Assembly: GCA_947175605.1 (NCBI GenBank)
Contig: CAMWNH010000017.1
Coordinates: 1-34,243, forward strand
Direction of reading: 5' to 3'
DNA from: an uncultured Porphyromonadaceae bacterium
Lineage (GTDB): Bacteria; Bacteroidota; Bacteroidia; Bacteroidales; Muribaculaceae
Length of the DNA: 34,243 bases
The translations under genes and the position numbers were made by a program. Below are positions 2,583 to 15,495 of this stretch, one piece after another; positions within the stretch are counted from its first letter, which is position 1; the number at the start of each line of letters is the position of its first letter. The notes below the pieces were generated by a model that saw only the letters and a list, made by a program, of their open reading frames with translations, was not told where the DNA came from and did not search any database.

Positions 2583-4808
2583 TTATTTGTGGGGCACGGG
2601 AGTCAGCGCCGAATATCGCAGATTCACGGTGCGTGAGCCGAAGTCCACGCGTGCGGACCCTCGGTCGGGATTGTTTTCCACGACCGTGCCTCGTCCGAAG
2701 CGCTTGTGGAGCACTTCGGTGCCCGGGGCGAACTCATCGCCGTCGTTGGCATCAATGAATTCTTCGGCGAATATTTCGCTGTCGAGTTTGCGCACGAGTT
2801 TGGCCGTGCCTTTGAGTAGTGTTTCGTCAATGTCGCCCTCGATTTCCACGAGGCCTTTTCCTATCTCGGTGAGGAAGCGCGAGGGGTATTTGGATTGTTT
2901 GGAATTGAAGTCAAAGCCTTCGCTTTCTGTGAGCACGACGGCTTTCTCACCTCGTGTCACAGCCACATACATCAGACGCCGTTCCTCCTCCAGACCCTTG
3001 AGCTTACGTTCGCGGATGCTTCGGTGGCTCGGGAATATTCCTTCCGTGAGCCCTACAACGAAGACATAGGGAAACTCGAGCCCCTTGGCCTGATGGATGG
3101 TCATGAGACGCACGCTGTGTGTGTCCTTGCGGTAGTCTGCATTGGTGTAGAGCGCCACGTCCTGAAGATATTGTTCGAGCAGGGTAAGCGGGCGCTGACC
3201 GTCAGGACCCTCGGTTAGGGGAGGAAGATCGTCGGAATGCTGCTGCTCGTAAAGTTTTACGGCGCCCAAGAGCTCGTTGATGTTCTGCAGACGGTCCTCG
3301 TCCATATCCTTGCGGATTGCTTTCTTGAGGCCGCTTTCCGTGAGGATTCCTTCGAGAAGGTCGCTCGCCTTGATGCCCTCTCCGGCGCTCGTGGCGTGAT
3401 ATTTCTCAATGAGATATGTGAATTCCCGAGCCTGTGTGCGGGAAAATTCCTTGTTGTCGATATTTTCCACCAGTGTGGCGAACAGCGACTTACCCAGAGT
3501 CTCCGCCACAGCCTTGAGGCGTCCGAGCGTGCTCTCTCCGAAATGGCGCGAAGGCACATTCACAACCCGTTCGAAAGACATGTCGTCATCCGGATTGGCT
3601 GCCAGACGCAGATATGCCAGTGCATCCTTGATTTCTTTACGCTCAAAAAAGCGCACGCCACCCCAGACAGTATATGGAACTTCCTCTTTGATAAGGGCCT
3701 GCTCGAAGGCTCGCGAGAGGTGGGCGGCACGATAAAGTATGGCCATGCCGCTATATGGTTCGCCGGCATCCGCGAGACTGCGTATGCGTTTTGCAACCCA
3801 TTCGGCTTCCTCGGGTTCAGAGTCGGCATGGAGGTGAAGCACCCGAGCGGCATGGCTCTTGCTGGTTCGCAGCTGCTTGGGAATGCGCATGCGGTTGTGG
3901 TCGATAACGCTGTTGGCCACGGCAAGAATATCGGGCGTGGAGCGGTAGTTTTCATCCAGGACTATGGTGCGGTCGGCAGGGAAGTCCACAAAGAAGTCGG
4001 GCTTTGCCCCGCGCCATTCGTATATTGCCTGATCCGGATCGCCCACGATGAATAGATTGCCGCAGCGTTGGCTGACGATATTGATTATCTCCCAGTCGGT
4101 TGCGTTACAGTCCTGAACCTCGTCGACCTGTACGTAGTCGAGCTCATTCTGCCAGTACTCTCTTGCATCCGGGAAGGTGTGGAGGATGTAGAGGGTGGCA
4201 TATACGAGATCATCGAAGTCGAGTGCGAGAAATTTGAGCTGCCGCTGCAGATAGCGCATGAACACACGTTCCCGCTCGTCCATGGCCTCGCCGAGTTTTT
4301 CCATGCCGCCAGGCAGCAAGAGCGGTATGTAGCCGCCGGCACCAAGTTCGCTTTTTTTGTAGGCTATGTGGCTCAGAACCTGCTTTACGGTAATTGCGGA
4401 ACGGTCCATGCCCAGCTCTTTCATTACTTCTTTGGCAAAGGTCTTGGCATCGTCCTCATCTACGATGTTGAAGTTCTTGGGAAATCCGATACGATAAATC
4501 TCCCGACGAAGAACCTTGACGCAGAAGCCATGTATGGTGCATACGAAATCATTGACGTGAGCCGTGTCTTTCAACAGCGATCCTATGCGCTGTTTCATTT
4601 CCTGGGCGGCTTTGTTGGTAAAGGTCATACACAGGATGTTGGCGGGATCCACACCGATGTCTTCGACCAGATAAGCATATCTCGTGGCAAGCACACGCGT
4701 TTTTCCCGACCCGGCTCCGGCCACGACGCGCACACGCCCCTCGGTGGCCTCCACGGCCTCGAGTTGCTGTGCGTTAAGTCCGGAAATGTCAAGTACGCTG
4801 TCTGCCAT
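2583..4808 (-). CDS. UvrD-family superfamily 1 DNA helicase (second copy)
   Basis: A 741-residue ATP-dependent helicase. Visible motifs: Walker A AGAGSGKT (30-37), Ia MTFTNKAA (61-68), II VDEVQD (228-233), III GDPDQAIYEWRGA (256-268), IV LDENYRS (284-290), then LMTIHQAKGLEF (V) and RRLMYVAVTRGEK (VI) towards the C-terminus. Like its neighbour it ends in a small beta domain (GTEVLHKRFGRGTVV onward), but lacks the low-complexity linker. An in-frame TTG at 4820 would lengthen it by four codons, but that codon lies inside the promoter -7 box, so the ATG at 4808 is preferred. First gene of the operon with DUF4250 and the other helicase. Motif details differ from the neighbour (GDPDQ versus GDDAQ), so these are diverged paralogues, not a recent duplication. 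Confidence 0.95.
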   Translation of the reverse strand: MADSVLDISGLNAQQLEAVEATEGRVRVVAGAGSGKTRVLATRYAYLVEDIGVDPANILCMTFTNKAAQEMKQRIGSLLKDTAHVNDFVCTIHGFCVKVLRREIYRIGFPKNFNIVDEDDAKTFAKEVMKELGMDRSAITVKQVLSHIAYKKSELGAGGYIPLLLPGGMEKLGEAMDERERVFMRYLQRQLKFLALDFDDLVYATLYILHTFPDAREYWQNELDYVQVDEVQDCNATDWEIINIVSQRCGNLFIVGDPDQAIYEWRGAKPDFFVDFPADRTIVLDENYRSTPDILAVANSVIDHNRMRIPKQLRTSKSHAARVLHLHADSEPEEAEWVAKRIRSLADAGEPYSGMAILYRAAHLSRAFEQALIKEEVPYTVWGGVRFFERKEIKDALAYLRLAANPDDDMSFERVVNVPSRHFGESTLGRLKAVAETLGKSLFATLVENIDNKEFSRTQAREFTYLIEKYHATSAGEGIKASDLLEGILTESGLKKAIRKDMDEDRLQNINELLGAVKLYEQQHSDDLPPLTEGPDGQRPLTLLEQYLQDVALYTNADYRKDTHSVRLMTIHQAKGLEFPYVFVVGLTEGIFPSHRSIRERKLKGLEEERRLMYVAVTRGEKAVVLTESEGFDFNSKQSKYPSRFLTEIGKGLVEIEGDIDETLLKGTAKLVRKLDSEIFAEEFIDANDGDEFAPGTEVLHKRFGRGTVVENNPDRGSARVDFGSRTVNLRYSALTPVPHK

Positions 4809-4817
4809 ATCGTACTG

Positions 4818-4848
4818 CAAAGATACAAAAGAATTTCACTTTGCCCAA
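4818..4848 (-). promoter_or_regulatory. Bacteroidetes-type promoter of the helicase operon
   Basis: On the minus strand a TATCTTTG box (4825-4818) matches TAnnTTTG, and a TTGG box (4848-4845) sits 19 nt upstream. The predicted transcription start is only a few bases before the ATG at 4808, so the leader would be very short. Confidence 0.7.
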
Positions 4849-10675: not shown

Positions 10676-10683
10676 TATATTTG
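10676..10683 (+). promoter_or_regulatory. -7 box upstream of the NagB-like/PIG-L gene
   Basis: TATATTTG fits TAnnTTTG and lies 34 nt before the ATG at 10718. The only nearby TTTG (10658-10661) is 14 nt away, too close for a standard -33 box. Confidence 0.5.
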
Positions 10684-10717: not shown

Positions 10718-12694
10718 ATGAAGAATAATCTTACTTCGTTGATCAAGCTCACACGAATTCCGGCGCGCTACTACAGGCCCGATACGGAAATTGAGCTTGC
10801 CGCAGTGACGCGCGAAGAAAAGGTGAATACCAAAATCTTCGAGAGTTCCTCCAAAGGTGCGGATTTCCTTGCATCCGAAATCGTTCGCTATATCAAGCGC
10901 TTCGTTTCGGAAAAGGGCAAGTGCGTCATAGCGCTTGGCTGCGGCCAGGGCACGCATCCCGCTTATGCATCCCTCATCCGGATGTATCGCGAGGGACTGG
11001 TGGATTTCAAGAATGTAATCATATACAATATCAGTGAGTTCTTCCCTCTGCAGAAGGACGGTCCCTCCACGATGAAGCGTCTCCGCGAGGTGCTCATCGA
11101 CCATATTGACATTACCGAGGAGAACGTACGTACGATCGACCCGCAGATCACCAAGGAAACGATGTACGACTACTGTCAGGCTTACGATGAATCCATCGAA
11201 GCCGAGGGCGGCCTTGACCTTGTGGTTTGTGAGATAGGCCATAACGGCACTCTTGCTTTCAATGAGCCCGGTTCGTCGTTCAGCAGTCAGTTCCGTCTGG
11301 TGCTTGTGGGCAATGAAATGCGTCATGCCGTGGCATCGCAGTACAAGGTTGCGGATGTGCCCTCGACTGCGATCACCATCGGCATCGACAATATTCTCCG
11401 TTCGCGCCGTGTGCTCACAATGGCATGGGGTGAATCTTCATCGTCCACGGTGGCCAAGATCGTGGAAGGTCCGCGAACCGTGGCCGTGCCCGGATCGGCT
11501 CTGCAGGGCCATCGCCACGTGAAGCTTGTCACTGACCTTGGCGGCGCTGAAGAGCTCACTCGCATTAGCCGCCCTTGGATCGTGACTTCCTGTGACTGGG
11601 ACGACAAACTCATTCGTCGAGCTATCGTATGGCTCTGCGAACGCACAGGCAAGCCTATCCTCAAGCTCACGGACAAGGACTACAACGATGCCGGTTTGGG
11701 CGAGCTGCTGGCTCTTTACGGCTCGGCTTACAATGTGAACATCAAGGTCTTCAATGAGCTACAGCACACGATTACGGGTTGGCCCGGTGGCAAGCCCAAT
11801 GCCGATGACTCATCGCGACCTGAACGTGCCACGCCCTTCCCCAAGCGCGTGATAGTTTTCTCGCCTCATCCCGACGACGATGTAATCTCCATGGGTGGCA
11901 CGTTGAAGCGCCTGGTAGATCAGGGTCATGACGTGCATGTGGCTTACGAAACGTCGGGCAATATTGCCGTGGGCGACGAAGATATGATGCGCTACTTCCT
12001 GATGATGAACAAGATCGCTCCGATCTTCCATTTCGACACGGACGGATATAAGAAGATTTCGCATGAAGTCGCCGACTTCGTGGACCAGAAAAAGGCCGGG
12101 GATGTGGATACAGCCGATATACGCGAAATCAAGACAATGATTCGTCAGGCCGAGGCTACAATCGCATGCCACTACATCGGTGTGAAAAGCGACCACATTC
12201 ATTTCCTGCGCCTGCCATTCTACGAGACCGGTACAATCAAGAAAGGCGACCTCTCGCAGCGCGATGTCGACATTGTCAAGAAACTGCTCGAGGATGTGAA
12301 GCCTCATCAGATATTCGTGGCAGGCGACCTTGCCGACCCTCACGGAACTCACAAGATTTGCACGGACGCAGTCCTTGCAGCTATCGACGAACTCAAGCAC
12401 GAAGAATGGATGAAGGATTGCCGCGTGTGGATGTATCGCGGAGCATGGGCCGAGTGGGAAATCGACCATATTGAAATGGCTGTGCCCATCAGCCCGGAGG
12501 AACTTCGATTCAAGCGCAACAGTATCCTGAAGCATCAGAGCCAGATGGAGAATGCCCCCTTCCTGGGCGACGATGACCGTCTGTTCTGGCAGCGTGCCGA
12601 GGAACGCAACCGTGCCACAGCCAAGTTGTATGAGCATCTGGGTCTGGCATCATATGAGGCCATCGAGGCATTCGTGCAGTATCATCCAATCTGA
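10718..12694 (+). CDS. NagB-like domain fused to a PIG-L/LmbE deacetylase
   Basis: A 658-residue cytoplasmic fusion. Residues about 35-290 align with glucosamine-6-phosphate deaminase (NagB) over the stretches VIALGCGQGTHP (70-81), VDFKNVIIYNISEF (95-108) and IGHNGTLAFNEPGSS (173-187). Residues about 375-590 are a PIG-L (LmbE-like) zinc deacetylase with the HPDDD motif (384-388) and a late DPHGTHK segment that can supply the last His ligand. Compared with E. coli NagB from memory, D72 is S106, D141 is N176 and H143 is T178, while E148 is kept as E183, so the deaminase activity is doubtful although such proteins are commonly annotated as deaminases. The deacetylase motif looks functional. A role in amino-sugar metabolism or sensing is plausible; the exact substrate is unknown. 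It is the sole gene of its unit, ended by a strong hairpin. Confidence 0.85.
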   Translation: MKNNLTSLIKLTRIPARYYRPDTEIELAAVTREEKVNTKIFESSSKGADFLASEIVRYIKRFVSEKGKCVIALGCGQGTHPAYASLIRMYREGLVDFKNVIIYNISEFFPLQKDGPSTMKRLREVLIDHIDITEENVRTIDPQITKETMYDYCQAYDESIEAEGGLDLVVCEIGHNGTLAFNEPGSSFSSQFRLVLVGNEMRHAVASQYKVADVPSTAITIGIDNILRSRRVLTMAWGESSSSTVAKIVEGPRTVAVPGSALQGHRHVKLVTDLGGAEELTRISRPWIVTSCDWDDKLIRRAIVWLCERTGKPILKLTDKDYNDAGLGELLALYGSAYNVNIKVFNELQHTITGWPGGKPNADDSSRPERATPFPKRVIVFSPHPDDDVISMGGTLKRLVDQGHDVHVAYETSGNIAVGDEDMMRYFLMMNKIAPIFHFDTDGYKKISHEVADFVDQKKAGDVDTADIREIKTMIRQAEATIACHYIGVKSDHIHFLRLPFYETGTIKKGDLSQRDVDIVKKLLEDVKPHQIFVAGDLADPHGTHKICTDAVLAAIDELKHEEWMKDCRVWMYRGAWAEWEIDHIEMAVPISPEELRFKRNSILKHQSQMENAPFLGDDDRLFWQRAEERNRATAKLYEHLGLASYEAIEAFVQYHPI

Positions 12695-14409: not shown

Positions 14410-15495
14410 ATGAAAAATCTCGAATCCCTTTTCCCCGATATATTCCTTCCGGCAGATGCTCCGCTTGTGATTGCCGGTCCGTGCAGCGCGGAGAGCCGTG
14501 AGCAGACACTGTCCGTTGCGGAAGCCCTTGCCCGTGGCGGCGTGAAGATTTTCCGAGCCGGCGTGTGGAAGCCCCGCACACGTCCCGGAGGGTTCGAAGG
14601 GGCGGGGGAGGCGGCTCTTCCCTGGCTTCAGGAAGTGCGGGAACGCACCGGCATGCGGGTCATCACCGAAGTGGCTACTGCCGATCATCTCCATGCCGTG
14701 CTGGATGCAGGTCTCGACGCTGTCTGGCTGGGAGCACGCACGGCGGCCAATCCGTTTGCAGTTCAGGAGATCGCCGACGCCTTTGCATCGCTGCCTGAGG
14801 ATGAGCGCAAGCGTCTCGCCGTTCTCGTGAAGAATCCCGTGAGCCCGGATCTTGAGCTGTGGATCGGCGCTCTGCAGCGGCTGTATGGTGCGGGAGTGCG
14901 CCGCCTTGGAGCCATACACCGCGGATTCAGTTACTACTCTCATGGTCCCGGCTCATACCGCAATGCTCCTTACTGGGCTATTCCATTCGAGCTGCGCCGC
15001 CGTTTTCCAGAGTTGCCTCTGTTTTTCGATCCGAGCCATACGGGTGGCAGCCGTGAATTCATCGCTCCATTGAGCAGGGAGGCTCTGGACTTGGGCTTCG
15101 ACGGGTTGATAGTGGAAGTGCATTGCAATCCTGATGAAGCACTGTCGGATGCATCGCAGCAGCTCACGCCCGATGAATTTTTCGAGACCGTGGCAAAGCT
15201 GCGGCGCGGGGTGGAGGATCCGACCAAGGAATCTCTAAGGATTCTGCGTGAGGAAATTGATCTTCTGGATGCGCGACTGCTTGAACTGCTGGGACAGCGA
15301 ATGGACGTATCCCGTAGGATAGGTAAAGTAAAACAGGCAAGCGGCCTGTCCGTGGTGCAGCCCTCGCGCTATGCCCGTCTCATAAGCGAACGCACCGGTG
15401 CAGGCACAGTTCTGGGACTTTCGCCGGAGTTTGTGCGGCGCGTGTTTGCAGCAGTGCATGAAGAATCCGTGCGCCACCAACTCCCCGAGCGCTAA
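14410..15495 (+). CDS. Bifunctional DAHP synthase / chorismate mutase (type II)
   Basis: A 361-residue fusion for aromatic amino acid synthesis. The N-terminal domain (about 17-265) condenses phosphoenolpyruvate with erythrose 4-phosphate to DAHP, the first shikimate-pathway step. It shows VIAGPCSAES (20-29), FRAGVWKPRTRPGGFEG (48-64), KNPVSPDLELW (141-151), FDPSHTGG (206-213) and EVHCNPDEALSD (236-247). The C-terminal domain (about 273-361) is an AroQ-type chorismate mutase helical domain, with the LRILREEIDLLDARLLELL helix and a GKVK segment (305-308), converting chorismate to prephenate. This arrangement is known in Bacteroidetes, where the mutase domain can also serve in feedback control of the synthase. 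The start is fixed by the short distance to the core strand. Single gene with its own -7 box. Confidence 0.95.
   Translation: MKNLESLFPDIFLPADAPLVIAGPCSAESREQTLSVAEALARGGVKIFRAGVWKPRTRPGGFEGAGEAALPWLQEVRERTGMRVITEVATADHLHAVLDAGLDAVWLGARTAANPFAVQEIADAFASLPEDERKRLAVLVKNPVSPDLELWIGALQRLYGAGVRRLGAIHRGFSYYSHGPGSYRNAPYWAIPFELRRRFPELPLFFDPSHTGGSREFIAPLSREALDLGFDGLIVEVHCNPDEALSDASQQLTPDEFFETVAKLRRGVEDPTKESLRILREEIDLLDARLLELLGQRMDVSRRIGKVKQASGLSVVQPSRYARLISERTGAGTVLGLSPEFVRRVFAAVHEESVRHQLPER

Follow-up and report, generated by a model that had tools for sequence, protein, structure and literature searches.

A Bacteroidales NagB/PIG-L fusion protein with a degenerate deaminase half and conserved deacetylase motifs

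In the genome of an uncultured Muribaculaceae bacterium, we analyzed a protein in which a NagB-like domain with a degenerate active site is fused to a PIG-L domain with intact motifs. Our preferred reading, to which we give a probability of roughly 60%, is that it descends from a fusion of a deacetylase with a deaminase, that the deaminase half decayed once it was redundant, and that the PIG-L half was kept, probably as a GlcNAc-6-P deacetylase. The Bacteroidota family would have begun as a two-step enzyme, a single chain that combined a GlcN-6-P deaminase of the NagB type with a zinc-dependent PIG-L deacetylase. Deamination may have passed to a separate canonical NagB in the clade of our protein and, as independent events, in about three further lineages of the order. 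The catalytic base (D72 in E. coli NagB) and the histidine for ring opening (H143) would then have been lost from the NagB half, leaving this half to persist, under relaxed constraint, as a folded scaffold. As the retained enzyme, the PIG-L half would convert GlcNAc-6-P to GlcN-6-P and acetate, filling the place of a missing NagA downstream of MurQ or sugar kinases and upstream of the separate NagB. This reading draws on the fold, residue states, gene co-occurrence, relative rates and gene content of the genome, which were computed directly.

The window, i.e., the whole stretch of 34,243 nucleotides that was analyzed, contains an ATG-started ORF with the following features.

10718..12694, + strand: NagB-like/PIG-L fusion, 658 aa (ORF; NF002557, 912.1 bits; model mean pLDDT 86.6)
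10829..11542, + strand: NagB-like domain with degenerate active site, residues 38-275 (Pfam and alignments; NagB fold, Z ~35)
11033..11035, + strand: codon of S106, at the position of the catalytic base D72 of E. coli NagB (alignment)
11249..11251, + strand: codon of T178, at the position of the catalytic H143 of E. coli NagB (alignment)
11543..11833, + strand: conserved middle segment, residues 276-372, retained beside PIG-L in a homolog lacking the NagB half (genome G602)
11834..12691, + strand: PIG-L (LmbE-like) deacetylase domain, residues 373-658 (PF02585, 73.3 bits; BshB, Z 21.3)
11867..11881, + strand: HPDDD motif, residues 384-388 (invariant in 121/121 fusions of the first set)
12335..12352, + strand: DPHGTH motif, residues 540-545 (invariant in 121/121 fusions of the first set)

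The NCBIfam model NF002557 (PRK02122) matched residues 11-657, far above its cut-off of 384 bits. Pfam matches covered residues 46-264 (Glucosamine_iso) and 379-556 (PIG-L), the score of the latter exceeding the gathering score of 28.2. The protein is a member of this already known family, named 'glucosamine-6-phosphate deaminase-like protein', and resembles it in length and two-domain make-up; however, members outside its clade and a few other lineages retain D72 and H143, both of which are absent here. It is a variant of that family, in which a pseudo-deaminase half, probably arising from redundancy, is joined to a retained deacetylase. The first-pass annotation had envisaged an undescribed reaction, which is not supported here. 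NCBI already names the family 'deaminase-like'. The annotation had also warned that a plain 'glucosamine-6-phosphate deaminase' label could be wrong, and here it is supported: the protein scored 147.6 bits against the NagB equivalog model TIGR00502, under the cut-off of 236.9, and the genome carries a separate canonical nagB.

Residues were mapped onto E. coli NagB from the MG1655 record. S106, N176 and T178 occupied the positions of D72, D141 and H143, and E183 that of E148, as had been proposed from the sequence by eye. T41, R172 and K208, the phosphate-binding residues of the E. coli enzyme, were replaced by C75, S207 and S241. The D141 substitution had been counted as a further catalytic loss and we reject this, because B. 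subtilis NagB (2bkv) also has Asn at this position and the column is seldom Asp among fusions, so that D141N carries no weight. B. subtilis NagB is an active monomeric enzyme. Judged from the alignments, the true losses of the NagB half are D72, H143, T41 and K208, the two phosphate-binding positions being lost or variable. Chance misalignment was ruled out by the fold match (Z ~35), the HMM matches and a 121-row alignment. In addition, the D72/H143 pattern is beyond chance: all 51 sister-branch fusions retain both residues and nearly all members of the window's clade have lost them.

A search for alternative conserved active-site residues revealed E172, H80, C192 and H267 as newly fixed in the clade. 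The acidic E172 lies near the active-site loop, and together with the kept fold and E148 equivalent, and the occurrence of D141N in B. subtilis NagB, it could be taken to mean that the NagB half still deaminates through other residues. We consider this very improbable, since H175, the only histidine beside the loop, is not conserved within the clade, a separate canonical nagB is present, and the NagB half evolves at a relaxed rate. Overall, deaminase activity is very unlikely for the NagB half.

An AlphaFold2 model of the protein was built with 39 window and locus sequences. In VIA-align comparisons, residues 35-286 of the model matched NagB structures (E. coli 1dea and B. subtilis 2bkv) at Z 34-35, with an rmsd of 1.5-2.0 A over 238-249 residues and 26-28% identity. 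The modeled NagB fold is thus retained, despite replacement of the catalytic base, the histidine and the phosphate-binding residues. Residues 375-658 matched PIG-L/LmbE deacetylases at Z 17-21 (BshB, MshB and archaeal diacetylchitobiose deacetylase, the diacetylchitobiose deacetylases scoring about 20). These enzymes share with our protein the common fold, HPDDD and DPHGTH, the latter marking the region of the later zinc-binding histidine of PIG-L enzymes; the window domain instead sits behind a NagB-like domain and the conserved middle segment. HPDDD had been noted previously at 384-388; together with PHGTH at 541-545 within the second conserved motif it makes up the zinc and catalytic motifs, whose presence supports the view that the PIG-L half is intact.

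A first set of 121 fusions was aligned and used for tree construction. The tree split 51 sequences retaining D72, H143 and E148 from 70 Bacteroidales-type sequences with varied replacements, in which D72 was changed to S, Y, H or F and H143 to N, S, T or A, and, in a Prevotella-type subclade, E148 to V. In 60 further stretches of the phylum, D72 and H143 were present everywhere outside the order; both were gone in one large clade, which includes our protein, and in about three further lineages, with PIG-L motifs retained. Degenerate fusions occupied approximately four separate places in the tree: the large clade, G535, G584 with G615, and G402 (position uncertain).

We then scanned 228 genomes of the order for the fusion, nagA and nagB, and fetched sequences for residue state. 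Fusions were present in 51 genomes of the order. A separate canonical nagB accompanied 26 of the 27 degenerate fusions versus 4 of the 24 intact ones (Fisher p = 2.5e-9). Since degeneration arose about four times over in the tree, relatedness only inflates this p-value and did not create the pattern. With 69 extra genomes, the counts were 27/28 versus 5/92 (p = 1.0e-20, relatedness ignored), the fifth case among intact fusions (G099) being a 371-residue frame barely above the cut-off. The sole degenerate genome without a separate nagB (G484) measures 1.2 Mb, is 99% complete and is nested inside the degenerate clade; neither nagB nor nagA was detected in it at the thresholds used, yet the degenerate fusion was kept (L191:5746-7734). 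Intact fusions mostly scored above the NCBI NagB equivalog cut-off and were nearly always the only NagB of their genome to do so. In 12 of the 27 genomes with a degenerate fusion, as well as in G351, the separate nagB is the direct neighbor of the fusion gene, and 15 of the fetched loci had a canonical nagB nearby. In the window's genome the two genes are on different contigs: a search for a separate nagB, suggested in the first-pass annotation, found it on contig 18 with all catalytic residues present.

Evolutionary rates are consistent with decay of the NagB half. With topology fixed, branch lengths of the NagB part were compared with those of the rest of the protein, and the ratio was 1.63 for degenerate branches versus 0.59 for intact ones (Mann-Whitney p = 7e-9); it was likewise raised, to 1.5 to 2.0, in the independently degenerate G402, G535 and G615. 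Within the window's clade, mean identity was 0.58 for the NagB half versus 0.86-0.87 for the middle segment and the PIG-L domain, and all three parts were at about 0.65 in intact fusions. However, pure decay does not predict that the degenerate pocket columns of this clade are more conserved than the remaining domain (0.71 versus 0.56, P = 0.003), nor that E172, H80 and C192 are fixed. This pocket conservation and the newly fixed residues leave room for a residual structural or binding role. They would also fit a NagB half repurposed as a sensor for a sugar or sugar phosphate, which would still bind this ligand and regulate or position the PIG-L deacetylase, as would the full-length NagB fold, retained with high confidence, and its clear deletion in only one case. 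We regard such a sensor as unlikely: the phosphate-binding T41, R172 and K208 have changed or vary, the whole half evolves fast, and the replacements at D72 and E148 differ by clade, unlike what one common new site would give. The earlier proposal of a sugar-phosphate-binding, regulatory half therefore fares poorly at best, given its lost or variable T41 and K208 and its fast evolution; a regulatory role is possible, though not the best reading.

The window's genome is 98% complete and has, besides nagB, murQ on contig 60; the fusion is its sole PIG-L gene. No nagA was found in this genome by the family model or by a protein search with a NagA query from the same order, two approaches that agreed here, the sensitivity of the model being doubtful as it missed B. 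subtilis among control genomes. The sole weak nagA match was an ORF that reads as dihydroorotase. In the established pathway, MurQ makes GlcNAc-6-P and NagB consumes GlcN-6-P, and therefore the deacetylase step is a gap in this genome. NagA itself has an amidohydrolase fold, unrelated to PIG-L; its likeness to the PIG-L half would be limited to the proposed reaction. Neighborhoods of the fusion in relatives contained MurQ, ROK kinases, NagP-like transporters and nagB, and the order as a whole showed co-occurrence of the fusion with murQ (odds ratio 11.3, p = 2e-11, relatedness ignored). For GlcNAc-6-P as the substrate we see a chance of about one half or slightly more.

The distribution of nagA calls for this caution. 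Within the phylum, at least 30 genomes that encode the fusion carried nagA with the PIG-L half intact, and no anticorrelation between fusion and nagA was found when tested in the order (7/52 versus 9/176); hence, GlcNAc-6-P is perhaps not the sole or true substrate. In some genomes (G068, G339 and G347) nagA even directly adjoins the fusion. The PIG-L half may instead act on another N-acetylated sugar, such as a disaccharide or a GlcNAc-bearing precursor of a small thiol or glycolipid. Retention beside nagA, BshB and diacetylchitobiose deacetylases as nearest solved structures, and the survival of the fusion without nagA or nagB in G484 speak for such a substrate. Against it, fusion to a GlcN-6-P deaminase and the recurrent murQ, sugar kinase and nagB neighbors point to GlcN-6-P as the product, and the window's genome has murQ and nagB with nagA not found. 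On balance we consider another substrate the less probable case, albeit one to be taken seriously.

One half of a probably bifunctional enzyme has decayed repeatedly, in parallel with the presence of a separate copy, and the family thereby offers a clean natural experiment on redundancy. For a large number of proteins of the Muribaculaceae, Prevotella and Porphyromonas types, a deaminase annotation should not be transferred. A GlcNAc-6-P deacetylase in the PIG-L half, if confirmed, would explain how gut Bacteroidota without NagA use the amino sugars of peptidoglycan and mucin for glycolysis or for building the cell wall. A bolder version, in which the family is an unrecognized non-orthologous NagA replacement, once fused to its deaminase, and the dead half of the Muribaculaceae type now serves as a ligand-responsive regulator, appears to us a long shot. 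No characterized fusion member or described activity was found in the literature, which was searched mostly among papers available without subscription. For NagB of the F. johnsoniae chitin locus, expression failed and deletion left chitin use unaffected (PMC5127042).

Several relatives depart from the usual architecture. The homolog without a NagB half (G602, L200:5881-7095) is a natural protein consisting of the middle segment and PIG-L in an open frame of 405 residues, and is the only clear case of NagB-half deletion; in G219, both halves occur as separate adjacent genes. The converse of our protein was observed in G401 (L195:5931-7886), where the NagB half is intact and HPDDD reads RPADD; the branch-length ratio of this fusion was 0.31, and its genome has, besides a separate nagB, two nagA-like genes. 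Other decayed PIG-L motifs were DPNGTH in one G214 copy and HMDDD in G007, both genomes being nagA-positive like G401. A dependence of PIG-L decay on nagA presence was considered and set aside, since among fetched fusions these three isolated cases are too few to count.

A protein of 770-800 residues weakly similar to the fusion was also detected at L190:7725-10106 (+ strand) and in L129, L130, L131, L132, L133 and L138. Comparison with Pfam gave no PIG-L match for it and, for Glucosamine_iso, a sub-threshold match at best; in G590 it is encoded directly behind the fusion gene. It may be a further degenerated paralog of the fusion.

In the window, the fusion gene is flanked by surE and an amylase-like gene. 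The sequence TATATTTG at 10676-10683 (+ strand), 34 bases before the fusion ATG, fits the -7 element of Bacteroides, TAnnTTTG; no -33 element was seen at the usual spacing to it. Elsewhere in the window, two neighboring UvrD-type helicase genes lie on one strand (56-2389 and 2583-4820, - strand), and Pfam matches at 14410-15495 (+ strand) identified a fusion of DAHP synthase with a type II chorismate mutase.
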